Source: Myxococcota bacterium
GTDB taxonomy: Bacteria > Myxococcota_C > UBA6777
DNA: 64,000 bases
Direction of reading: 5' to 3'
NCBI GenBank assembly: GCA_023150835.1
Contig: JAKLKB010000018.1
Coordinates: forward strand, 1 to 64,000
The notes under the pieces are model-generated. The model saw only the letters and a program-made list of their open reading frames with translations. It had not been told where the DNA came from and ran no database searches. This document shows, one piece after another, positions 45,396 through 61,457 of the stretch (its first letter is position 1; the number at the start of each line of letters is the position of its first letter). The position numbers were made by a program, and so were the translations under genes.

Positions 45396-45992
45396 ATGTC
45401 CGAAGCCAACAAAGCTCAAAAAAAGAAAGCACAACTCCGCGAAGCCGCCTACCGCTGCTTTCAAAAGTCTGGCTATTACGAAACCACCGTCGATGATATC
45501 TGCCAAAAAGCCCAATGCTCAAAAGGCAGTTTCTATTATCACTACGCCTCCAAACAAGAAGTCTTTATCGATATCCTCCAAGTCTGGGCCCGCGAAGTCA
45601 TCTCCGAGATGCTCAAGTCCTTTGAAGATGCCCTCGCCAACGAAACCCCCATCGAAGCCGTCACCCAAGCCATCCAAAACGAAGTCCGACGCGGTCGCGC
45701 CATCGTCCCGCTCTGGCTCGAATTCACCATCCACGCCCACCGCGACGAACTCGTCCGAAACGCCCTCTCCAAATTCTTCCGACGTACCCGCAACGCCATC
45801 TCCGAGATGCTCGAACCCCTCACCCGCGATCGCTTCTCCGCAGAAGAAAGCGAAGGCATCGCCGCCGGCATCTTCGGTATGTACACCGGCCTGATTATGC
45901 AAGAACTCGCCGACCCCGAAACCGCCGATGCCAGCGAGTCCGTCGCACGCATCATGCGCGTCATGTCCATTCTTCTCGCTCCCATCGCCTGA
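45396..45992 (+). CDS. TetR-family regulator, likely of the fatty acid synthase
   Basis: This encodes 198 residues. ATG at 45396 lies seven bases after AAGGA and is preferred to the upstream in-frame ATG at 45366. The DNA-binding domain is typical: LREAAYRCFQKSGYYETTVDDICQKAQCSKGSFYYHYASKQEVF. The C-terminal helices (about 70-198) would bind a lipid-like ligand. The gene lies 132 bp upstream of the type I fatty acid synthase on the same strand. A TetR-type palindrome lies in that gap, so it probably represses the synthase in response to acyl-CoA or a similar signal. Confidence 0.85.
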   Translation: MSEANKAQKKKAQLREAAYRCFQKSGYYETTVDDICQKAQCSKGSFYYHYASKQEVFIDILQVWAREVISEMLKSFEDALANETPIEAVTQAIQNEVRRGRAIVPLWLEFTIHAHRDELVRNALSKFFRRTRNAISEMLEPLTRDRFSAEESEGIAAGIFGMYTGLIMQELADPETADASESVARIMRVMSILLAPIA

Positions 45993-46026
45993 TCTCCCTC
46001 CGCCATCCTTGATCCAAATTTTTTTA

Positions 46027-46093
46027 TTGACATCCTTCACGAATTCAAGTACCGCCCTCTTCCATTGATTTTTCTTTAGACCGACCAGTCGGT
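46027..46093 (+). promoter_or_regulatory. Promoter and TetR-type operator of the FAS gene
   Basis: TTGACA at 46027-46032 is a good -35 candidate; the -10 region is not clear. ACCGAC-CA-GTCGGT at 46080-46093 is an inverted repeat with 6-bp arms, typical of operators bound by TetR-family proteins. It lies 31 bp before the FAS start codon. Confidence 0.65.
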
Positions 46094-46124
46094 TTTTGTT
46101 TGCCCAAAAGAGAAGAGGGATACG

Positions 46125-49100
46125 ATGCGAAGAACAGAAGAGCGCAACAACGGGAAAGCAGCGGTTGTTCAAGCGGCAGAGGAGGGTGCTTCTTTGTCGG
46201 CGTCAGCGAAAGAACAGCTGTGGGGTCTGGAGCGCACGTCGCAAGGGTTCGTGTCGTACGATGGAGAAGGGGGGCAACAAGGCGGCGCGTTGTACACAAG
46301 CGGTCAAGTGACTGCGGTGCGCTCGTTGTTGTCGCGTCTGGTGCTGGGGGAAAACCAAGCGGCGATCTCGTTTGCGGGACAAGGTTTCTATGATCTGGAT
46401 CATCTTGCGGGTTTGATGCGGGGATCGCGGGAAGTACGGGCATTGTTGGAAGCCGCGACAGCACATCTAGAATCACTGGTCCACACACAAGAAGCGCGAT
46501 GGAGCGGGTGTTATGCCGATGGCTTCGATGTGATGGCTTGGTTGCAAGAGCCTTCGACGCGCCCGTCGGCAGCGGTATTACGGGGCGGTTGTTATTCACA
46601 GCCGCTGATCTTGATCCAACAAGTCGCTTTGTATGTCGCGTTGTACGAAGAAGGGATCCGCGAAGCCTTTGCGGTGGGGGCGATCCCCGTGATCTTTGGT
46701 CACTCTCAAGGCTTACAGACGGCGTTGTTGGTGGCGGAAAGCCCAAACGGACAGATCGAGACCGAACGGCTCTTGGCTTATGTAAGCTATGCCTTTTGGC
46801 AGGGTCTGGTGATGGAACAAGGATACACCGTCACGCCCGAACGTTCGGCGGAAGGGGCGTCACCGATGGCGGCGATCTCGGGTCCGTCGCTTGCGGTGTT
46901 GGAACAGGTGTTGGCGCGTTTCAATCGCAGTTTGCCCGAAGCAGCGCAAGTCGATATCTCGTTGTACAACACACGCAATCGCCATGTGGTGAGCAGCCAT
47001 CCTGCGGTGCTTTCGACGCTACGCAAGGCGATGGAGGCCCAAGCCGAGCGCGAGGCTGCCCGAAAAAAAGCCGGGCGATTCGGAGGACAACCGCTACAGT
47101 TTACATGGGAATATCTCGAAGTCAGCGGCCCGTTTCATTCGCGTTATATGCGCGAAGGCTTTGAGCAGATGCAGCGAAAAGTCCGAGATATCGGCTTTGA
47201 TTTTTCAAAAAGCCGCTTCTTTGTGGATGTGTTGTGTGGCCACACAGGGCGCGTGTTGACGCAACAGCCCGATGTATTGGATGAGTTGCTGCACAATCAG
47301 TTTGTGCGCTCGGTACGTTGGTCGCGGATGTTGCGCAGTTTGGAGCCTTACAACGGAGTTTCGGATATCTTGGATCTCGGGCCGGGGGATGGGGTGATGC
47401 GCTTGACGGCTTCGGCCTTGCGTGGAACGGGACGACAAGTCCACACGCTTTACACCCAAGAAGGCCAAGACGCTTTCTTTCTACAAGCTCCGCAGACACC
47501 TCGTCCTGTGGCTTATTGCAGCTTTCTTCCGTCTGTTTCTCCCGATGAGGCAGGGGGATGGCGCGTCGAAAACCGATACACCCGCGCAACGGGCCATGCA
47601 CCCGTGATCTTGCCGGGGATGACCCCCACCACGTCGGATGTCCCGATCGTCGCCGCAGCGGCCAACCAAGGTTTTACCGCCGAGTTGGCGGGCGGCGGTC
47701 AAGTCAACGAACGGATCTTTTGGTTGCGGATGGAAGAGCTTCAAGAGGCCCTTGGACCCGGGCGTGAAGTCGTCTTCAACGCGCTGTATCTCGATCCGTA
47801 TCTGTGGGATCTTCATGTGCGCAAAACGGGCTTGGTGCAAAAAGCACGCAAGGCGGGTTATCCGATCTGTGGTGTGACGATCAGCGCAGGGATGCCCGAA
47901 GTCTCCGAAGCTGTCGCTCTTTTGGATGAGTTTGTGTCGTTGGGGATGTGGCTCAATGCTTTCAAGCCCGGGACGTTGGCGCAGATCCGTCACGTCGTCA
48001 AGATCGCACAAGCCGCACCGCACCATACGATCTTTGTGCATCTCGAAGGCGGCAAGGCAGGCGGGCATCACTCGTGGGAAGATCTCGAACAGCTTTTGTT
48101 GGACGGCTATCACCTCTTGCGCGAACAGCCCAACCTCGTGCTTTGCGTGGGCGGCGGGATCGGAAGCGAGGCCCACGCCAATGCCCTGCTGACAGGCCGA
48201 TGGTCTCTCGCTCACGATCTGCCACAGATGCCCGTCGATGCGGTGCTTTTGGGGACGCTCACGATGGCTTGCAAAGAAGCCACCACCTCCGCACAAGTCA
48301 AACAAGCCCTTGTCGATGCTCCCGGCTGCGCGGGATGGGTCTTTGCAGGCCACGTCGAAGGCCAGACCACTTCGGGAAAAAGCGCACTCAACGCAGATAT
48401 CCACTACATCGACAACGCTGCCTCCCGCTGTGGGCGTTTGTTGGATGAAGTCGCGGGCGATGCGATCGCAGTTCAAGCCCGACGCGATGAGATCATCGCG
48501 GCACTCAACCAAACCGCCAAGCCTTACTTTGGCGATCTCTCGACCATGACGTATCATGCCGTCGCGCAGCGCCTTGTCACGTTGATGGCCCTCGGACGTC
48601 ACGGACGCTACGAAGACGGTCCTTGGCTTGATACGACGCACCGCACACGATTCGCAGACTTTTTGCAGCTTGCAGAGGCTCGATTGTGCGAACAAGAAGA
48701 AGGCCGCTTCGCATGCTTTTTTGGAACCTTCGAAGCGCTTGACCATCCACAGGCTTGTGTCGATCGGCTGCTTGCGCTGTATCCCCACGCAGCCCAGCAG
48801 ATCTTGCATCCTGCGGATGTTCGGCGATTTTTGTATGATATCTGTGGCCGCGCTGGCAAGCCTGTTCCGTTCGTTCCCGTCATCGACGCCGAAGTGCGGC
48901 GTTGGTACAAAGCAGACTCGCTCTGGCAAGCCCACGATGATCGCTACAGCGCCGACCAAGTTCTGATCATCCCCGGCCCTGCGGCCCTTCAAGGACTCCG
49001 TAGCGCAGATCAGCCTGTGGCCTCGATGCTTGGGCGGTTTGTGGACGCACTCCAAGCAGAAGTCCAACAGATGCCCGCGCCTCCCCACGCCGAACGTTCA

Positions 49101-52100
49101 CCGCTGTCTCTCTCCCGATGGCCCGAAGGTTGTACAGGTAGCGTGACGTTGTGCAGCGATCCCCATCCGACCGCCCCGCGCTACGAAGTGGTCCTGACGA
49201 TCCCATCGGCCCTTCCAACAGAACCGACCGAATGGTTTGGATTCCTTCGCGAGGCTTTTACAGGCCCCCTGATCACCGCCATGACCTCGATCCGCCTCTA
49301 CCAACAAGGCGGCTCACAGCCCAATCCCTTGCGCGAGCTGTGCGTGTGTGAAGCAGGCGCACAACTGCGTATGATCATGACCGAAGGACGGCGCATCCAG
49401 TCGCTTACCTATCATCCAAACAACACTGCGGCCCACGAAACCGTCCACCTTTCCTTACACACTGACCAAGCCAACGACGCCCACCTCCATCTCGATATCT
49501 CTCTTGCATCGGCCTTTACAACAGAGCCTGCCCTCTACAGGCTGCCTTTGCGCGTCCAAGACGGTATCTTGCTCGTCGATGCCCGCGAACAAGAACAAAC
49601 CTTGCGCGACTTTTACCAACACGCGCTCTTTGGCCGTCTGTTGGCCCCTGTCGAAGCCTTTGCCCCCACCCACCACACCACCCACGCGGACCCCCAAAAG
49701 CTCCGAGGCTACGCGGTCTCCACAGGCTCTCATGGTGATCCGTCGCACCTGCCGATGAATATGGCCTTTTCTTTGGTCTGGGAGCCTCTCTTCCGCTTGC
49801 TTTCTGCCGAAGGGGTTTGCGAAGGGATCTTGCGACTTGTTCATCTTTCCCATCACGTCGAGATCGACGCTGGTTGGCCGATCCTCCCTCACCAAGCCGT
49901 CGATGTCGAAGCCCAGATCACACGCATCGAAAACACCGACACAGGCCGAAGCATCCACACCCGATGCACCCTCTCACGCAACGGTGCGCGCTGCGCGATC
50001 GTTGAATCGGCCTTTTTTGTGCGTGGCTTTTTTGGCCGAACAACCGACATCTTGCGCACCAAAGAGATCATCGACACCTCACTGATCTTGCGCGATCAAG
50101 GCAGCATCGACTTTTTGCTTGCACACGGATGGCTGCATCGCACCTCCGACACCCCTCTGCACGTCGGCGATATCTTGCAACTGCGTGCGCTCCAAGAAGA
50201 ACACCGCCCCCGAAAAGGTCTTGCGCATTTTGCCGCAACAGGTCAGATCTGGCGTGGTTCCCAACCGATCGCCACGCTCGCGCTCGATCTACGGGCAGCG
50301 CGCAAACTCCATCCTCTGCAAGCCCTTCTCCAAGCCTTCGCCCAAGAACAAGCCACCCCGCGCAAGCCTGTCACGCCCCGCATCCTTGCGCATACCGAGA
50401 CCCAAGCCCCCCAATCCATGCAAACCTTTGCAGAAGTCAGCGGCGATCTCAACCCGATCCATCGCAGCTTGCTGTTTGCTCGGATGGGACGGCTCGATCG
50501 CCCGATCGTGCATGGGATGTGGACCGCTGCCCGCCTGCATAGCTTCTTGGTCGCCTCGGTGGTCGATGGCGAAGAAAGCCGCGTCCTTGATTACAAAGCC
50601 TCCTTCCTTGCGCCGCTTTTGCTTGGTGAACGCTTGCGACTCGAAGCCACCCGCACAGCCGTCCAAGAGGGCGTCTTGTTCGTCGAGCTTACAGCTTCCG
50701 CCATGCGCGACGCCCAAGCCATCGCCGTTGTTCGCGCCGAAGCCAAAGTCAAGATGCCCCGCAGCGTCTATCTGTTCCCCGGCCAAGGCATCCAACAAAA
50801 AGGCATGGGCATGGAGGCTTACGCCCGCTCCAAAGCGGCGCGCAACGTCTGGGATCAAGCGGATGCTTATACACGCGAACATCTCGGATTCTCGATCTTG
50901 GAGATCGTGCGCAACAACCCCAAAGAGCTTCTCGTCCAAGGCCGCACCCACGTCCATCCCCAAGGCGTCTTGCATCTCACGCAGTTCACACAAGTCAGCA
51001 TGGCTGTGATGGCGCAAGCACAAGTCGCAGAGCTCCGCGAGTCCGGGCTTTTGGACCCTGATGCGATCTTATGCGGTCACAGCGTCGGCGAATACAACGC
51101 CATCGGTGTGACAGGTATCCTCCCGCTGACAGATGTCGTCGAGATCGTCTATCATCGGGGACTTGTGATGCACGCACTCGTCCCACGCGATGAATCGGGC
51201 GAAAGCGGCTACCGCATGGGCGTTCTTCGCCCTCATTACGCAGGAATGGATCACGCCCAAGCCGAAGCCCTTGTCGAGCAAGTCGCCAAACAAACCGGCC
51301 AGTTCTTGCAGATCGTCAACTACAACGTCCGAGGCCGTCAGTACTCCGTCACAGGGCAGATCGGCGCGCTTCGGCTTCTTGAGCAGCTTCTCGATCAGCG
51401 CGCAACACAGAAAAAGCCCCCCTACATCGAAGTCCCGGGCATCGATGTTCCCTTCCATTCGTCCGTCTTGTTCAACGGTGTCGACGACTTCCGCAAAACT
51501 TTGGAGGCGCGCTTCCCTCAAGATATCGATGAACAACGACTCTTGGGTCGTTATATCCCCAACCTTGTCCCCAAACTCTTCTCTCTCGACAAGCCATACA
51601 TCGAAGAAGTTCAACAGACCACTCAGTCGCCGATCCTAGAAAAAGTCCTTGCAGACTTCGCCGACTACGCCGCCACCCCCAAGCGCCTCGCACGTATCCT
51701 GCTCATTGAGCTGTTGGCATGGCAGTTTGCAAGCCCTGTCCGTTGGATCGAGACCCAAGAGCTGCTCTTCCAACGCCGTTCGCTCGGTGGGATCGAGATC
51801 CAGCGCGCTATCGAGATCGGCGTGGGCTACCAGCCCACCTTGGCAAACATGGCGCGTTATTCCCACCAACTGCTCGGCCCTTCAGCTCCTGATATCGAGA
51901 TCCTCAATATCGAAGCGGAAGCGGATCGCGTCTTCTTGCGCGACCAAGACACCCTGCCACCTCAAGCCCAAGATACCGCTGCTCCGGCCTCGATCCAGCC
52001 TCTCTCCGCTCAAAAGCCACAGCCCTCACAACAGGCCACCTCCTCCGCTTCGCTCCAGCAACCATCACAACAGGCCATCCCATCGACAAACGCCGCCTCC

Positions 52101-55100
52101 CCCGTTTCGGTCGGCGCACCGCCACCGCCCGATCAGCCGCTTTCTGTGGCCGAAGGCGTGACTTTTGTCCTCGCAAGCCAAGCCCGTATCCGCCCCGATC
52201 AGCTTTCCATGCAAGAGACCCTCGATGATCTCTTTGACGGCGTTTCATCGCGCCGCAACCAAGTCCTGCTCGACCTTGGCGCAGAGTTTCAGATGGGACC
52301 GATCGACGGGGCCCATGAAAAACCTTTGCGCGAACTGATCGCCGAGATCACCCGCCGCTGCCCTTCCTACAAAGCCCCCGGAAAATATATGCGCGCCACC
52401 CAAGATGATTCGATCAAACGAGTCTTCGGACGCGCTGGACTGACGCGCAAAGAAGTGGAAAGCCACTTTGAACAACAATTCGGCCTTGGTTCGGGCTTGC
52501 GCGAGAGCGCGTTGTGTCTGCTCGCCTTGGAAAGCCGCGAAGGAGCCTCCGCTCGCGGCGGCAGCATGGGCTTGTTGCCCCAAGCCCTCCCATCCGACCG
52601 AAACACCGCCAAGACCTTCTTAGACGAAGCCGCCCTACGCATCGGACAGATCAAAGGTCTGACGATCAGCCGACAAGGCGCACACAGCACAGGGGGCGGA
52701 GCCTCCGTCGATGCCGCTGTCGTCCAAGAGCTTGAGTCCAAGATCCTCGGACCCAAGGGGATCTTGATGCAACAAGCCCGTGAGATCGCCGAACGTCTGG
52801 GGCATCCGATCGAGGCCGCAGCAAGCGGGCTTCCTGCGCAACACAATGAACAAGCCGAAAAGCTGGCTCTCTACGAAGCAGAACACGACAGCGAGTTTGT
52901 CGAATGGCTTCAACCGCGCTTTGATGCCAAAAAGCACGTCGCGCTGACTTCTTCGTGGGCGTCTGCTCGACGCGATGTGGCTCGATTGTTCTTTGATCTG
53001 CGAAACAACCGCATTGAGGCTTCCGAAGCCTTGGCACAAGTCGCCCGACTGGCCGCCTTCCACGAGGATATCACCCTCACACAAACCGCTTCTTGGTACG
53101 CAAAACTCGCCGAAGAGCAAGGCGACCTCCGTCTTGCAGGTTGGCTCCACCAGATCGCAGCGGGTGATGCGCCCCATACTCCGGCGTTTCAGCCGACGCG
53201 CCCCGCGCTCTCTTTGCAACAAGACGGCTCTTGGAGATACGCCGAGGCCGTATGCGATCAAGCCGATGCCCTCGACCGTTTTGTCGATGCCTTGTGGCCC
53301 AAAGATCGCCCTCCCCTTCTTCAAATCGGCGAACAAGGCGAATGGAACATCACTTTTTCCAAGCTCCTGTCCGAACACACCAAGCGGCCCTTTGATCTGC
53401 GCAACACGACCGCTCTGGTGACGGGTGCAAGCCCGGGATCGATCGCCTTGGCCTGTGTGCGCTTTCTTTTGCGCGGTGGAGCCCGTGTCATCGTCACCAC
53501 CAGCACTTACAACAGCGATCGTGTACGCGAATACCGCGATCTCTTCGAGACTTCTGCCGTCCCGGGTGCAGAGCTCCATGTCGTCCCCTTCAACCAAGCC
53601 TCTTTCCAAGATGTCGAGTCCCTGATCCACTGGCTGTTTTCCTCTGTCACCGAACAAGACGGAGCCAAAGTCCGCGTCGTGAAGCGCCCTTTTGCACCCG
53701 ATATCGTGCTGCCTTTCGCCGCCATCAAAGATCTCGCCACGCTCGACAGCCTCCAAGCCCGCTCCAATGCCGTGATGCGTACGATGCTGCTCAGCGTAGA
53801 GCGCCTTGTGACGGGCATCGCCACCCATTACAAGCGTCACGGTCTCCCCGCGATGCCTTGCCATATCCTGCTGCCGCTTTCGCCAAATCACGGGAGCTTC
53901 GGTGGTGACGGCGTGTACGCCGAAACCAAAGCTGCACTCGAAGTCCTCCTGACCAAGTGGGAAAGTGAACGCGAAGCGTGGGGCAAAGCCACCACCTTGT
54001 GCGCGGCCCGCATCGGATGGGTCCGTGGGACGGGCTTGATGGATGCCAACAATCTTGTGGCTCACCACCTCGAACAGCGCACAGGCATACGCACTTTTTC
54101 GAGCGATGAGATGGGCTGGTTGTTGACCGCTCTGTGTACCCATGCGGCCAGAAAACAAGCCCTCCACCAGCCGCTTGAGGCCGATCTAACGGGCGGTTTC
54201 CAGCGGATCAAAGCCCTTCGTCAGACTGTTTCGACGATCCGCACCGAACTCGAACACCAAGCCGCTCGCGTCAAGCAACGCCTGACCCTCGAAAACGCCG
54301 AAGCCACCTTGCTTGGCGCGCCCACCGATGCGCCTTTGCTTGTCGATGCGCTTCCTCATTGGCCTGCGACCTTACACCCTCGATTGACGCCTGCCACAGC
54401 CAAAAAGCCCGTCCATTGGCCCAAACGCGGCCTTTCCTTGCGCGAGATGGTGGTGATCGTTGGCATGGGCGAGATCGGCCCTTGCGGAAGCGCCCGTACC
54501 CGCTACGAGATGGAGCTCGGTCCATCCCTTTCTCCTGCTGCTGTGCTTGAGTTGGCTTGGATCACGGGCTTCGTCACCTACGAAGAAAACGGCAAAGCGG
54601 GGGTTTGGAAAGATCGCCAAACCAACACCGTGATCGCAGAACACGAGATCGCCGCTCGTTATCGTGAAAGCGTCCGCAAACATCTCGGGCTGCGCTGGAT
54701 CGAGCCTGAGACCGTAGGCATCGACCCCAACGCTCTTTCTATGTACACCTCTGTTTTTCTGGAAAAAGATTTTACTTTTTCGGTCAGCTCCGAAGAAGAA
54801 GCCCGTACTTTCTTTGCGACGGCCCCCGAAAAAACCCGTGTTCACTTTGATGCCCAAGACGGACAATGGCGCATCACACGCCTCGCTGGAACCGAAGTTA
54901 AAGTCCCCCGCCAAGTCCGCCTCCAACGTCAAGTCATGGGCCAGATCCCCAAAGGCTTCGACTTTGCGCGATTCGGTCTCTCCAACGATATGATCGAACG
55001 CATCGATCGCGTCGCTCTCTTCAACCTGATCGCCACCGTCGATGCCTTCTTGTCTGCTGGCATCGAACCCGAAGAACTCTTGCGATGGCTCCATCCTGCC

Positions 55101-56354
55101 CGCGTCGCAAACACCCAAGGCTCGGGCATCGGTGGGATGCGCAGCTTGGCCCGTCTCTACCGCGATCACGTCCTCGATATCGAGCGCCAGCCTGATATCC
55201 TCCAAGAGACCTTGATCAACGTCGCAGCGGCCTATGTGGTCCAAAGCTACGTCGGAAGCTACGGGCCGATGTCTCACCCTGTCGCCGCCTGCGCAACCGC
55301 TGCCGTCTCTCTCGAAGAAGCCACCGACAAGATCTTGGCAGGAAAGGCCGACTTTGTAGTCGCGGGTGGGTACGATGACGTCGGGCGCGAAAGCCTTGTG
55401 GGCTTCGGTGATATGAACGCCACCGCAAACACCGATGAGATGGTCGCGATGGGGCTTGAACCCGCCCAGATGTCCCGCCCCAACGACACGCGGCGACGCG
55501 GCTTTGTCGAGGCCCAAGGCGGCGGAACCTTCTTGCTCGCTCGCGCCGATATCGCCCTACAGATGGGTCTCCCCGTGTACGGTGTGGTCGGATACTGCGG
55601 CTCTTTTGGTGACGGTATCCACAAATCCATCCCCGCCCCCGGCATGGGCGCACTCGCTTGTGCCATCGGAGGCCAACAATCCCCGCTCGCTCGTTCACTC
55701 CAACACTTCGGCCTGACCGCTGATGATATCGCCGTCGTGTACAAACACGACACTTCCACCGCTGCCAACGACCCCAACGAAAACGAACTCCATCACCGCA
55801 TCCAACGAGCGCTCGGACGCAGCGAAGGAAACCCGCTCTTTGCCGTCTCTCAAAAAAGTCTGACAGGTCACGCCAAAGGCGGAGCCGCTGCGTGGCAGAT
55901 CATCGGGCTTTGCCAGACTCTTCTCCAAGGCCGCATCGCAGGAAACCCCAATCTCGACAACGTCGATCCGATGATGCGTTCTTTTTCTCATCTCGCTTTC
56001 TCAAACAAAACCCTTGACGTAGGTGAGACGCTGCCGCTGCGTGCAGGGATGCTGACCAGCCTCGGTTTCGGCCACGTCAGCGGTATCGCTCTTTTGCTTC
56101 ACCCCGATGCCTTCTTGGCCCAACTCTCCGAAGAACAAGCCACCGCTTACCACTCCCGCTGTCAGCAGCGCCACCACCAGACCACCCAACGCTGGGCCTC
56201 CGTCTTCATGGGACAAACACCCTTGTTCTCTCGCCGAAACCTCCGCCGCTTTGAAGCCCAAGACGGCTCTCCCGAACAAGCCGCCCAAGAAGCCGCCATG
56301 CTCCTGAACCCCCACGCTCGCCTTGATACCTCACGCGGCTTCTATTCTTTGTAA
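46125..56354 (+). CDS. fas: Type I fatty acid synthase (FAS-I)
   Basis: This encodes 3409 residues in one open frame; ATG at 46125 follows GAGGG. The domain order is that of actinobacterial FAS-I. The acetyltransferase carries GHSQG (Ser194). The FMN enoyl reductase (about 485-820) has ILPGMTPTT and HLEGGKAGGHH. The dehydratase hotdog has AEVSGDLNPIH (Asp1441, His1446). The malonyl/palmitoyl transferase has GHSVGE (Ser1653). After a Pro/Gln/Ser linker (about 1946-2005) the ACP has DGVSSRRNQ, with the phosphopantetheine Ser2041. The ketoreductase has VTGASPG and Tyr2598-x3-Lys2602. The ketosynthase has Cys3056, His3208 and His3249. It makes long-chain acyl-CoA from acetyl- and malonyl-CoA. It is longer than the roughly 3070 residues of the mycobacterial enzyme. 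Confidence 0.95.
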   Translation: MRRTEERNNGKAAVVQAAEEGASLSASAKEQLWGLERTSQGFVSYDGEGGQQGGALYTSGQVTAVRSLLSRLVLGENQAAISFAGQGFYDLDHLAGLMRGSREVRALLEAATAHLESLVHTQEARWSGCYADGFDVMAWLQEPSTRPSAAVLRGGCYSQPLILIQQVALYVALYEEGIREAFAVGAIPVIFGHSQGLQTALLVAESPNGQIETERLLAYVSYAFWQGLVMEQGYTVTPERSAEGASPMAAISGPSLAVLEQVLARFNRSLPEAAQVDISLYNTRNRHVVSSHPAVLSTLRKAMEAQAEREAARKKAGRFGGQPLQFTWEYLEVSGPFHSRYMREGFEQMQRKVRDIGFDFSKSRFFVDVLCGHTGRVLTQQPDVLDELLHNQFVRSVRWSRMLRSLEPYNGVSDILDLGPGDGVMRLTASALRGTGRQVHTLYTQEGQDAFFLQAPQTPRPVAYCSFLPSVSPDEAGGWRVENRYTRATGHAPVILPGMTPTTSDVPIVAAAANQGFTAELAGGGQVNERIFWLRMEELQEALGPGREVVFNALYLDPYLWDLHVRKTGLVQKARKAGYPICGVTISAGMPEVSEAVALLDEFVSLGMWLNAFKPGTLAQIRHVVKIAQAAPHHTIFVHLEGGKAGGHHSWEDLEQLLLDGYHLLREQPNLVLCVGGGIGSEAHANALLTGRWSLAHDLPQMPVDAVLLGTLTMACKEATTSAQVKQALVDAPGCAGWVFAGHVEGQTTSGKSALNADIHYIDNAASRCGRLLDEVAGDAIAVQARRDEIIAALNQTAKPYFGDLSTMTYHAVAQRLVTLMALGRHGRYEDGPWLDTTHRTRFADFLQLAEARLCEQEEGRFACFFGTFEALDHPQACVDRLLALYPHAAQQILHPADVRRFLYDICGRAGKPVPFVPVIDAEVRRWYKADSLWQAHDDRYSADQVLIIPGPAALQGLRSADQPVASMLGRFVDALQAEVQQMPAPPHAERSPLSLSRWPEGCTGSVTLCSDPHPTAPRYEVVLTIPSALPTEPTEWFGFLREAFTGPLITAMTSIRLYQQGGSQPNPLRELCVCEAGAQLRMIMTEGRRIQSLTYHPNNTAAHETVHLSLHTDQANDAHLHLDISLASAFTTEPALYRLPLRVQDGILLVDAREQEQTLRDFYQHALFGRLLAPVEAFAPTHHTTHADPQKLRGYAVSTGSHGDPSHLPMNMAFSLVWEPLFRLLSAEGVCEGILRLVHLSHHVEIDAGWPILPHQAVDVEAQITRIENTDTGRSIHTRCTLSRNGARCAIVESAFFVRGFFGRTTDILRTKEIIDTSLILRDQGSIDFLLAHGWLHRTSDTPLHVGDILQLRALQEEHRPRKGLAHFAATGQIWRGSQPIATLALDLRAARKLHPLQALLQAFAQEQATPRKPVTPRILAHTETQAPQSMQTFAEVSGDLNPIHRSLLFARMGRLDRPIVHGMWTAARLHSFLVASVVDGEESRVLDYKASFLAPLLLGERLRLEATRTAVQEGVLFVELTASAMRDAQAIAVVRAEAKVKMPRSVYLFPGQGIQQKGMGMEAYARSKAARNVWDQADAYTREHLGFSILEIVRNNPKELLVQGRTHVHPQGVLHLTQFTQVSMAVMAQAQVAELRESGLLDPDAILCGHSVGEYNAIGVTGILPLTDVVEIVYHRGLVMHALVPRDESGESGYRMGVLRPHYAGMDHAQAEALVEQVAKQTGQFLQIVNYNVRGRQYSVTGQIGALRLLEQLLDQRATQKKPPYIEVPGIDVPFHSSVLFNGVDDFRKTLEARFPQDIDEQRLLGRYIPNLVPKLFSLDKPYIEEVQQTTQSPILEKVLADFADYAATPKRLARILLIELLAWQFASPVRWIETQELLFQRRSLGGIEIQRAIEIGVGYQPTLANMARYSHQLLGPSAPDIEILNIEAEADRVFLRDQDTLPPQAQDTAAPASIQPLSAQKPQPSQQATSSASLQQPSQQAIPSTNAASPVSVGAPPPPDQPLSVAEGVTFVLASQARIRPDQLSMQETLDDLFDGVSSRRNQVLLDLGAEFQMGPIDGAHEKPLRELIAEITRRCPSYKAPGKYMRATQDDSIKRVFGRAGLTRKEVESHFEQQFGLGSGLRESALCLLALESREGASARGGSMGLLPQALPSDRNTAKTFLDEAALRIGQIKGLTISRQGAHSTGGGASVDAAVVQELESKILGPKGILMQQAREIAERLGHPIEAAASGLPAQHNEQAEKLALYEAEHDSEFVEWLQPRFDAKKHVALTSSWASARRDVARLFFDLRNNRIEASEALAQVARLAAFHEDITLTQTASWYAKLAEEQGDLRLAGWLHQIAAGDAPHTPAFQPTRPALSLQQDGSWRYAEAVCDQADALDRFVDALWPKDRPPLLQIGEQGEWNITFSKLLSEHTKRPFDLRNTTALVTGASPGSIALACVRFLLRGGARVIVTTSTYNSDRVREYRDLFETSAVPGAELHVVPFNQASFQDVESLIHWLFSSVTEQDGAKVRVVKRPFAPDIVLPFAAIKDLATLDSLQARSNAVMRTMLLSVERLVTGIATHYKRHGLPAMPCHILLPLSPNHGSFGGDGVYAETKAALEVLLTKWESEREAWGKATTLCAARIGWVRGTGLMDANNLVAHHLEQRTGIRTFSSDEMGWLLTALCTHAARKQALHQPLEADLTGGFQRIKALRQTVSTIRTELEHQAARVKQRLTLENAEATLLGAPTDAPLLVDALPHWPATLHPRLTPATAKKPVHWPKRGLSLREMVVIVGMGEIGPCGSARTRYEMELGPSLSPAAVLELAWITGFVTYEENGKAGVWKDRQTNTVIAEHEIAARYRESVRKHLGLRWIEPETVGIDPNALSMYTSVFLEKDFTFSVSSEEEARTFFATAPEKTRVHFDAQDGQWRITRLAGTEVKVPRQVRLQRQVMGQIPKGFDFARFGLSNDMIERIDRVALFNLIATVDAFLSAGIEPEELLRWLHPARVANTQGSGIGGMRSLARLYRDHVLDIERQPDILQETLINVAAAYVVQSYVGSYGPMSHPVAACATAAVSLEEATDKILAGKADFVVAGGYDDVGRESLVGFGDMNATANTDEMVAMGLEPAQMSRPNDTRRRGFVEAQGGGTFLLARADIALQMGLPVYGVVGYCGSFGDGIHKSIPAPGMGALACAIGGQQSPLARSLQHFGLTADDIAVVYKHDTSTAANDPNENELHHRIQRALGRSEGNPLFAVSQKSLTGHAKGGAAAWQIIGLCQTLLQGRIAGNPNLDNVDPMMRSFSHLAFSNKTLDVGETLPLRAGMLTSLGFGHVSGIALLLHPDAFLAQLSEEQATAYHSRCQQRHHQTTQRWASVFMGQTPLFSRRNLRRFEAQDGSPEQAAQEAAMLLNPHARLDTSRGFYSL

Positions 56355-56373
56355 AAATGTCGGATCTATCTTA

Positions 56374-56826
56374 ATGAGTTTTCAACTGTCTTTTCATCCT
56401 CAAGGGCGTGTCCTTGGTGTCGGTTTCGATGTCGTTTCGGTTGCGGCTTTCTCTCTACAGCTTCAAGATCCAGCCTCTTGTTTTGTCGAAGAAGTCTTTA
56501 CCTTAGCAGAACGCCGCATCGCTCGCTCACGCGCAGGGCAACAGCCCGCACGCCACTTCGCGGCCCGCTTTGCTGCCAAAGAAGCCCTCATCAAAGCGTG
56601 GTCTTCGGCCCTTTTCGGCCAACCTCCCCCCTTGCCGCATCTCTCCTTACGAGAGATCGAAGTGATCCACGATGCTTATTCTCGCCCTGCCCTACGTTTT
56701 CACGGTCAAGTCTCGGATGCCATTCAAGCACTTTTCCCCTATACAACCCACCTCTCTCTCTCCCACGATGGCGACACCGCCGCTGCCATCGTCTTGATCG
56801 AACAGCTCACCGCTGCTTCGCGTTAG
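56374..56826 (+). CDS. acpS: Holo-ACP synthase for the FAS
   Basis: This encodes 150 residues. ATG at 56374 lies 20 bp after the synthase stop; the Shine-Dalgarno is weak (GGATC). The two signature motifs of AcpS-type phosphopantetheinyl transferases are present: GVGFDVVSV, with the Mg-binding Asp near residue 19, and HFAARFAAKEALIKAW near residues 60-75. It transfers phosphopantetheine from CoA to a serine, here most probably Ser2041 of the FAS. The same fas-acpS order is found in mycobacteria. Its last 32 bases, with the stop, are duplicated downstream. Confidence 0.9.
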   Translation: MSFQLSFHPQGRVLGVGFDVVSVAAFSLQLQDPASCFVEEVFTLAERRIARSRAGQQPARHFAARFAAKEALIKAWSSALFGQPPPLPHLSLREIEVIHDAYSRPALRFHGQVSDAIQALFPYTTHLSLSHDGDTAAAIVLIEQLTAASR

Positions 56827-59704: not shown

Positions 59705-61387
59705 TTATTCGTCAAGATCTACGTCTTTTTCTTCTTTCTTCTCTGGTTTTTTCTCTTCTCTTTTTTTCTCTTTTGCGGTTTCTTTGCAAAGACAGCGTCC
59801 CTGCTCACCTTTTGGACCCATCGGTCCCTTGTCACCTTTCAACCCTTTCGGACCCATCGGTCCCTTGTCACCTTTCGGACCCATCGGTCCCTTGTCACCT
59901 TTCGGACCCATCGGTCCCTTATCACCTTTCGGACCCATCGGCCCCTTATCACCTTTCGGACCCTGTTCGCCTCTCAGTCCTTTCGGTCCCATCGGTCCTT
60001 GCGCGCCTTGTTCACCCTGTTGGCCTCGCTGACCGACCGGACCTTGCTCACCTTGTTCTCCTTTTGTCCCCATCGGACCTTGCCGCCCCATTCGGCCCTG
60101 CTCACCTTTCGGACCTTGCTCACCTTTTGGCCCCTGTTCACCTCTCGGGCCTTGCTCACCTTTCGGTCCCATCGGACCTTGCGGGCCTTGCAGCCCAACG
60201 GAGCCTTGCTCACCTTTTGGTCCAACAGAGCCGTTCTCGCCTTTTGGACCTCGCGTTCCCATCGGTCCGACCGCTCCCGTAGCGCCTCGCTCGCCTTTCG
60301 GACCTTGTGGTCCTTGCAACCCCATCGGCCCTCGCGTTCCTGCCGCTCCAGAAACACCCTGCTCGCCTTTCGGGCCTTGCGGCCCAACGGGGCCTTGCTC
60401 GCCTTTTGGACCTTGCGCTCCTTGCGGTCCCATCGGTCCTTTCTCACCTTTCGGGCCTTGCTCGCCTTTCGGCCCCTGCGGTCCTTGCGGACCTTGCGGC
60501 CCAACGGGGCCTTGCTCACCTTTCGGTCCTTGTGGGCCGATCTTTCCAGCGATACCCTGCTCGCCTTTTGGCCCCTGTGGGCCGATCTTTCCAGCGATAC
60601 CCTGCTCACCTTTTGGACCTTGCGGGCCGATCTTTCCAGCGATACCCTGCTCACCTTTTGGACCTTGCGGCCCCTGCGGACCTTGTAATCCTTGTGGACC
60701 CTGCGGTCCTTGCGGACCTTGCAGACCTTGCGAACCTCTTGGCAGAAGAACGTGTTGTATTTGCGAGCCGCAGCGAAAACGAATGACTGTACCGCGTGCC
60801 TCTTGTGAAACGCCGTCGATTTGACAGGGCGTGCCTTCGTTTCCTTTTTCTCCTTGCAAGACCATGACTTGCGCCAACGTTTTTTGCTGGCTGCCAAAGA
60901 ATCCCACCAAAACAAACAGCCCTGCACGCAATGTTTGCGGCAGATGGATCTCGCGTTTCATCGAAGTTCCTCCTTGAAGAATTTGAAAACCTTGCTCGCG
61001 TCCGTAATGTTGTTTGGGTTCACGCTCCGAGACAAGAGAAACACCCGTCAGCACGTCAAGATGTTCGCCATGTATCGTCCACCGCGAACGAAACCGCCGC
61101 GAAGCCATCTTTGCAAAAGACGGCTTTGCTTGCTCAGAAGAAAAAACGATGGGGGACAACGTACCCTCACCTTCGATAGAGAGGACTTTTGCGTTGTGAA
61201 AATGACGAATCATTTCTGATGCGCAATGTCCTTTTTGACATACCAAGCCTGACAGACAATCTGTATCACGCTTGCAAGGTCGCCCAAGCCCACCGTCTTG
61301 GCAACCCGTCACAAACAGCGACAGAAAAAACCACAGCCACACGCTGCGCTGTAATCCAATCCAAACACCTCGAACCCTCGCTCTCAT
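59705..61387 (-). CDS. Collagen-like lipoprotein
   Basis: This encodes 560 residues. ATG at 61387 follows AGGAGGGG. The lipoprotein signal ends in V-T-G-C near residue 30. An EGF-like Cys segment ([18 protein letters not shown]) follows. Residues about 100-215 are a globular domain, with a second hydrophobic stretch ([12 protein letters not shown]). Then about 100 Gly-X-Y triplets run without a break, dominated by [12 protein letters not shown] and GPKGDK. KGE/KGD triplets are known to stabilise bacterial triple helices lacking hydroxyproline. The tail is Lys/Glu-rich. A trimeric rod on the cell surface is expected. Confidence 0.85.
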
Positions 61388-61457
61388 CAACCCCTCCTGT
61401 ACCATGCGCTCGCCATCCGCCAAAGCAGATCAACTCTCTTGATAAAACTCACGCTCC

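Follow-up and report, generated by a model that had tools for sequence, protein, structure and literature searches.

The 64,000-nucleotide window analysed here, from contig JAKLKB010000018.1 of a Myxococcota bacterium (assembly GCA_023150835.1), carries on its forward strand a tetR-fas-acpS cassette, in which the gene for a type I fatty acid synthase (FAS-I) lies between genes for a TetR-family regulator and a holo-ACP synthase. Our best overall explanation, which we hold with good confidence, is that fas encodes a working FAS-I of a non-actinobacterial lineage, and that this enzyme supplies most or all of the membrane fatty acids in the window's host and in the related carriers termed group B below. 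Bacterial FAS-I has been placed solely in the CMN (mycobacterial/corynebacterial) actinobacteria or in Corynebacteriales (PMC4631590, PMC9260719). In the literature we covered, with most subscription papers and all preprints falling outside it, no account of a myxococcotal FAS-I was found, and priority is not established. What appears new is the cellular setting; apart from its placement outside the actinobacteria, all features tested mark the enzyme as FAS-I.

The fas gene and its product

The fas gene (46125-56354, forward strand) encodes 3409 residues uninterrupted by stops. A sequence-only reading had described it as a single frame with the domains AT-ER-DH-MPT-ACP-KR-KS, and this is borne out by the open reading frame (ORF), by matches to PDB chains and by the order of Pfam domains (SAT/AT, Fas1-AflB-like_hel, MaoC DH, Acyl_transf_1, Fas_alpha_ACP, FAS_I_H, KS). 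Along the forward strand, Pfam and alignment place the acyltransferase (AT) in the PF16073 stretch at 46395-47051, with Ser194 inside and His338 just past its limit; the enoyl reductase (ER), a Fas1-AflB-like helical region (PF08354, 322 bits), at 48027-49031, with His648; the hot-dog dehydratase (DH, MaoC) at 50388-50672, with Asp1441/His1446; the malonyl/palmitoyl transferase (MPT, Acyl_transf_1) at 50766-51359, with Ser1653, Arg1678 and, just past the limit, His1778; and the acyl carrier protein (ACP, Fas_alpha_ACP) at 52128-52532, with Ser2041 within DGVSSRRN. These are followed by the helical FAS_I_H domain (52833-53285, Pfam), the ketoreductase (KR, Tyr2598/Lys2602; 53382-54434, limits approximate, from a PDB match and alignment) and the ketosynthase (KS, Cys3056/His3208/His3249; 54855-55955, from Pfam, alignment and a KS tree). 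The catalytic residues of all domains, both those named from the sequence alone and further ones such as KR Lys2602, are invariant across 22 aligned FAS-I, save for a single gap in locus L049, whose ORF is split. Matches to mycobacterial FAS-I chains in PDB exceed 2100 bits and include an unbroken KR-KS stretch; those to FabF-type KS do not exceed 100 bits. By these features the window protein is an intact FAS-I of the actinobacterial/fungal type. A chance long ORF was also considered and is ruled out by the conservation of the protein. Third-position GC skew is -0.75 in tetR, jumps to +0.39 where fas begins and declines along the gene to about -0.5 at its end (45396-56354), a course seen also in genome G001 and partly in G002.

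The acpS gene (56374-56826, forward strand; Pfam, NCBIfam) begins with an ATG at 56374, 19 bp past the fas stop, and its product scores 142.5 bits with the holo-ACP synthase model, above the cut-off of 124; its place directly behind fas, as first read, stands. It adjoins fas in nearly all examined FAS-I loci whose downstream side is covered. CMN FAS-I (PDB 4v8v, 6gjc, 9pqx) is likewise a single chain with equal domain order and all catalytic residues, with acpS directly behind its gene. The window protein shares only about 43% overall identity with it and has about 300 more residues, most of which fall in aa 975-1415 (440 residues, compared with about 300), in aa 2150-2420 (270, compared with about 190) and at the N-terminus. 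The setting differs as well: the host is diderm and lacks canonical FabF, FabH and AcpP, the TetR regulator and its operator are other ones, and the protein lies outside the actinobacterial FAS-I clade, a difference of lineage and not of enzyme type.

A non-actinobacterial FAS-I lineage

The main tree, an unrooted mixture-model tree of 19 full-length FAS-I, gathers the actinobacteria, including Solirubrobacter, in one clade at 100/100 from which the window is excluded. A second set, group A (L028, L030, L038, L051 and L099), forms its own clade at 100/100, and group B (the window, L026, L031, L036, L071, L029 and L042) is placed between group A and the actinobacteria. Quick trees concur on the main split between actinobacterial and non-actinobacterial proteins; the position of the partial FAS-I of L072 is not resolved. 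In the KS tree the window KS stands with FAS-I at 100/100, apart from FabF and from polyketide synthase (PKS) and Pfa enzymes, with long branches on the other side, and the polyunsaturated fatty acid (PUFA)-type KS and two cluster KS of the window's own genome fall apart from the FAS-I KS. An assignment of the window KS to the PKS/PUFA (Pfa) clade, the outcome against which the sequence-only reading had proposed to check it, is thereby rejected. Secondary lipid synthases of the Pfa/PUFA type, also known in Deltaproteobacteria (PMC3098273), resemble the window FAS-I in being multidomain lipid synthases, but the latter has a KS, an ER and a domain order of FAS-I type.

Within the window's phylum, sampled by five genomes (G000-G004, G000 being that of the window), FAS-I is present in four, spanning three genera. 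The G001 protein is 95% identical to that of the window and has identical neighbour genes; G003 (locus L026; 54% identity) shows the order tetR-fas-acpS, and G002 (L027; 51%) shows tetR-fas, its contig stopping within fas. Thus tetR precedes fas in all three, and acpS follows wherever the contig extends that far. G001, G003 and G002 thus share one cassette with the window, which is therefore vertically inherited across at least three genera of the phylum. A frame break in L027/L016 coincides with a run of undetermined bases, an assembly gap, and therefore gives no evidence for a split gene.

The sequence-only reading had offered two accounts, one in which a whole actinobacterial cassette was transferred and one in which the FAS-I stands for a lineage so far under-described, and had taken vertical descent among close relatives as speaking against the former. 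A recent acquisition of fas-acpS from an actinobacterium by horizontal transfer would fit the facts that the closest characterised relatives are mycobacterial, that the fas-acpS order is common with actinobacteria and that the GC content of fas (about 0.58-0.59) is slightly over the window mean. We nevertheless regard it as very improbable, given the separate 100/100 actinobacterial clade without the window, the vertical pattern within the phylum, an identity of 43% to an actinobacterial FAS-I against 54% to that of another genus of the phylum, and an operator motif (below) that is not enriched upstream of actinobacterial fas. The second account is the one that gained support, from the tree position and from the presence in three genera: the window FAS-I probably belongs to a non-actinobacterial lineage long resident in Myxococcota-like bacteria, a likelihood that we attach to this history jointly with the role as sole synthase discussed below.

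A scan of 84,980 species genomes, of which the best 80 FAS-I loci were analysed and which is no census, extends the range of the enzyme. Besides actinobacteria, these best 80 loci include at least one planctomycete FAS-I and at least 16 from metagenome-assembled genomes (MAGs) whose labels read Myxococcota, Deltaproteobacteria, Proteobacteria or simply 'bacterium'; of these 16, two belong to the window's phylum and 14 lie beyond it. Among 381 genomes sampled from other phyla only one (G376) has FAS-I, and a quick tree places it among mycobacteria. No FAS-I relative was found in the viral contigs searched. This patchy presence, together with group B FAS-I in genomes beyond the window's five-genome phylum, would also suit an exchange of the cassette among Myxococcota-like lineages with several later losses of the dissociated type II system (FAS-II). 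The vertical pattern within the phylum speaks against such exchange, to which we assign somewhat less than even chances; it concerns the history only and is compatible with the functional reading.

Apparent loss of the dissociated FAS-II core in group B

FAS-II genes were scored with curated equivalog models, the cut-offs being 494 bits for FabF and 292 bits for FabH. Group A genomes retain FAS-II next to FAS-I. Canonical FabF scores 573-622 bits in seven of them, the L030 genome giving only partial hits at contig ends; six exceed the FabH cut-off, L099 (215) and L030 (264) falling short; and AcpP is present at 54-84% identity in all six searched (G386, G391, G392, G395, G396 and G397). The L072 genome also carries canonical FabF, FabH and AcpP. 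In group B, FabF matches reach at most 476 bits (316 in the window genome), FabH matches at most 247 bits, and no AcpP match exceeds 33 bits (20 in the window genome). G390 and G398 have no FabF-model match above about 165 bits. FabD is less clear-cut: three further group A genomes score 331-392 bits, but several group B genomes also reach 185-275 bits, often from genes beside cluster KS genes (76 in the window genome). FabZ, searched in the window's phylum only, returned just PUFA-synthase domains and short cluster dehydratases below 64 bits. As the genomes are not independent draws, the contrast is given without a p-value. Like an organism free of FAS-II such as Corynebacterium, the window genome (a draft of 7.56 Mb in 239 contigs, 93% complete) is without canonical FabF, FabH, AcpP and FabZ.

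Since group B is without canonical FabF, FabH and AcpP, its dissociated FAS-II core appears to have been lost, and FAS-I is probably its only de novo synthase. Simple incompleteness is unlikely because ten FAS-I-bearing draft assemblies of group B agree. The alternative is that FAS-I is an accessory synthase, for storage lipid, a PUFA primer or a secondary lipid, working beside an unrecognised, divergent FAS-II built from cluster enzymes. The window genome does hold Pfa-like PUFA/Ole genes and two free KS-AT-DH-KR sets (contigs C99 and C160); these sets sit in clusters resembling those for specialised metabolites and score under the FAS-II equivalog models, a free ACP is barely detectable, and G390 and G398 show only the low FabF matches given above. 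We consider this alternative unlikely, though clearly less so than a recent actinobacterial transfer.

Several points weigh against FAS-I as the sole synthase of a coherent group B. The genomes G002, G003, G387, G389, G393 and G394 hold FabD-, KS- or FabH-like proteins of intermediate score, which could in principle form a non-canonical FAS-II. The call rests on FabF, FabH, AcpP and FabZ, with enoyl-ACP reductases (FabI/K/V/L) and PlsX/PlsB not searched, and the group B genomes are all draft assemblies, mostly MAGs. Group B is monophyletic in only 37% of bootstrap trees and is not resolved as a clade. In G004, from the window's own family, neither FAS-I nor canonical FabF/FabH was found, perhaps because that assembly is only 86% complete. 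Finally, G389 is the one group B genome with LpxC, a marker of the lipid A pathway considered next.

LpxC, the only lipid A gene scored (LpxA/D were not searched), is absent from the window phylum's five genomes and from most other FAS-I carriers of groups A and B; it is present in G389, G397, G399 and G400. An Omp85 protein (BamA-type) occurs in every group B genome tested, and the window genome shows an FtsX-type permease, an ABC ATPase and then a BamA-type gene, a LolCD-like order. Because Omp85 is present and LpxC mostly absent, gene content indicates that the FAS-I carriers of group B are diderm cells, mostly without recognisable lipid A synthesis. Lipid A synthesis requires 3-hydroxyacyl-ACP supplied by FAS-II, and therefore its absence would permit the loss of FAS-II: cells with no need of this precursor could afford to lose the system. 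This causal tie is one that we infer; in group A, where LpxC is mostly missing, FAS-II is kept, so the absence of LpxC alone does not entail the loss of FAS-II. A separate FAS-I lineage in diderms, apparently replacing FAS-II, extends the known distribution of the enzyme and offers proteins with which a tuberculosis drug target can be compared.

Other lipid genes of the window genome deserve mention. On contig C39 (L018, L019), PUFA-type synthase genes adjoin an OleA-like protein, which is the best FabH match of the genome (63 bits), and a fused hydrolase/AMP-ligase resembling OleB-OleC. PUFA-type FabA-like DH domains occur in all five genomes of the phylum. The cluster on contig C99 (L020) combines a BioF/serine-palmitoyltransferase-type enzyme, AT, KS, KR, HMG-CoA synthase and two enoyl-CoA hydratases, and perhaps makes a beta-branching lipid or polyketide.

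A predicted operator and a model for the cassette

The tetR gene (45396-45992, forward strand) encodes a regulator with the Pfam domains TetR_N and TetR_C_6. Between it and fas lies the palindrome ACCGAC-CA-GTCGGT (46080-46093), a predicted dyad operator; both had been noted from the sequence, and ACCGACCAGTCGGT proved unique in the window at up to one mismatch, where 0.10 such sites were expected. TetR orthologues (38-54% identity) adjoin fas in G002, G003, L036, L038, L049, L051 and L072, and lie 5-6 kb downstream of it in L029 and L042. With the pattern ACYRAC-N2-GTYRGT and at most one mismatch, ten sites fall in the 21.7 kb that precede 19 non-actinobacterial fas genes, against eight in the other 394 kb of these loci, and every exact match in non-actinobacterial loci lies upstream of fas or tetR-fas. 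There was no enrichment in 64 other, almost all actinobacterial, loci (two sites in 75 kb upstream against 54 in 1.70 Mb). In L038, L049 and L051 both arms carry a paired change (ACTGAC/GTCAGT), as expected for a working dyad. The dyad precedes tetR in these three loci and in L072, whereas that of the window sits between tetR and fas; the leaders of G002 and G003 have diverged forms only. The suggestion that the cassette has its own regulation is thus strengthened by conservation of the site upstream of related fas.

A possible fas promoter, judged by eye, lies at 46027-46049 on the forward strand (-35 TTGACA, 17-bp spacer, weak -10 TACCGC). Because the dyad of the window sits downstream of this putative promoter, repression is the likelier sign of regulation. 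FasR, which activates fas-acpS in M. tuberculosis (PMC7382501), is a TetR-family protein too and is likewise associated with fas-acpS; the window TetR differs in being encoded beside fas, and its identification as FasR was rejected, the NCBIfam FasR model giving 44 bits against a cut-off of 330.

From the observed gene content, residues, tree position, loss pattern and operator conservation we infer an activity, oligomer, products, TetR ligand and sign, and sole-synthase role that would fit together as follows. AcpS would activate the ACP domain of FAS-I, whose single chain probably forms a barrel-shaped hexamer, by analogy with mycobacterial FAS-I. The enzyme would take acetyl and malonyl groups from CoA and cycle through KS, KR, DH and ER, and MPT would release long-chain acyl-CoA. 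The adjacent TetR, which probably senses an acyl thioester, would bind the dyad in the fas leader and tune expression. After loss of the FAS-II core, the membrane fatty acids of group B would come mainly or wholly from FAS-I.

A possible link to fungal synthases

Fungal FAS consists of split or fused alpha and beta parts with its own phosphopantetheinyl transferase domain. The window protein, homologous throughout to fungal FAS1/FAS2 (PDB 2uv8, 4v58, 7bc4), relies instead on a separate AcpS and is without the KS insertion described below. The phmmer scores to yeast FAS2/FAS1 are 847/596 bits for L028 of group A; 746/566 for the window, 738/605 for G003 and 673/561 for L071 of group B; and 608/509 for Rhodococcus and 584/498 for Aeromicrobium among the actinobacteria. 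Residues 975-1415 of the window protein match fungal beta with an E-value of 1e-7, against 0.011 for mycobacterial FAS-I. Five group A proteins (L028, L030, L037, L038 and L051) contain a KS insertion of ~60 residues where the fungal KS (FAS2) is also longer; it is missing in L099, group B and the actinobacteria, and one fungal chain only aligns across it, weakly (19 bits). These comparisons hint that fungal FAS may be nearer to non-actinobacterial FAS-I, and that the insertion may share an origin in group A and fungi. The link is only a lead because scores also vary with rate and length, and the tree is unrooted.

A broader scenario, which we put forward tentatively, would be a deep non-actinobacterial FAS-I clan in Myxococcota-like and planctomycete bacteria, part of which replaced FAS-II in diderms mostly without lipid A, with group A as the closest bacterial kin of fungal FAS. 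If true, the view of CMN actinobacterial FAS-I as forebear of fungal FAS needs revision; the non-actinobacterial proteins make the origin of fungal FAS directly testable.

Elsewhere in the window, the reverse strand at 59705-61423 encodes a long collagen triple-helix repeat protein (PF01391, 174 bits) that is conserved in G001.
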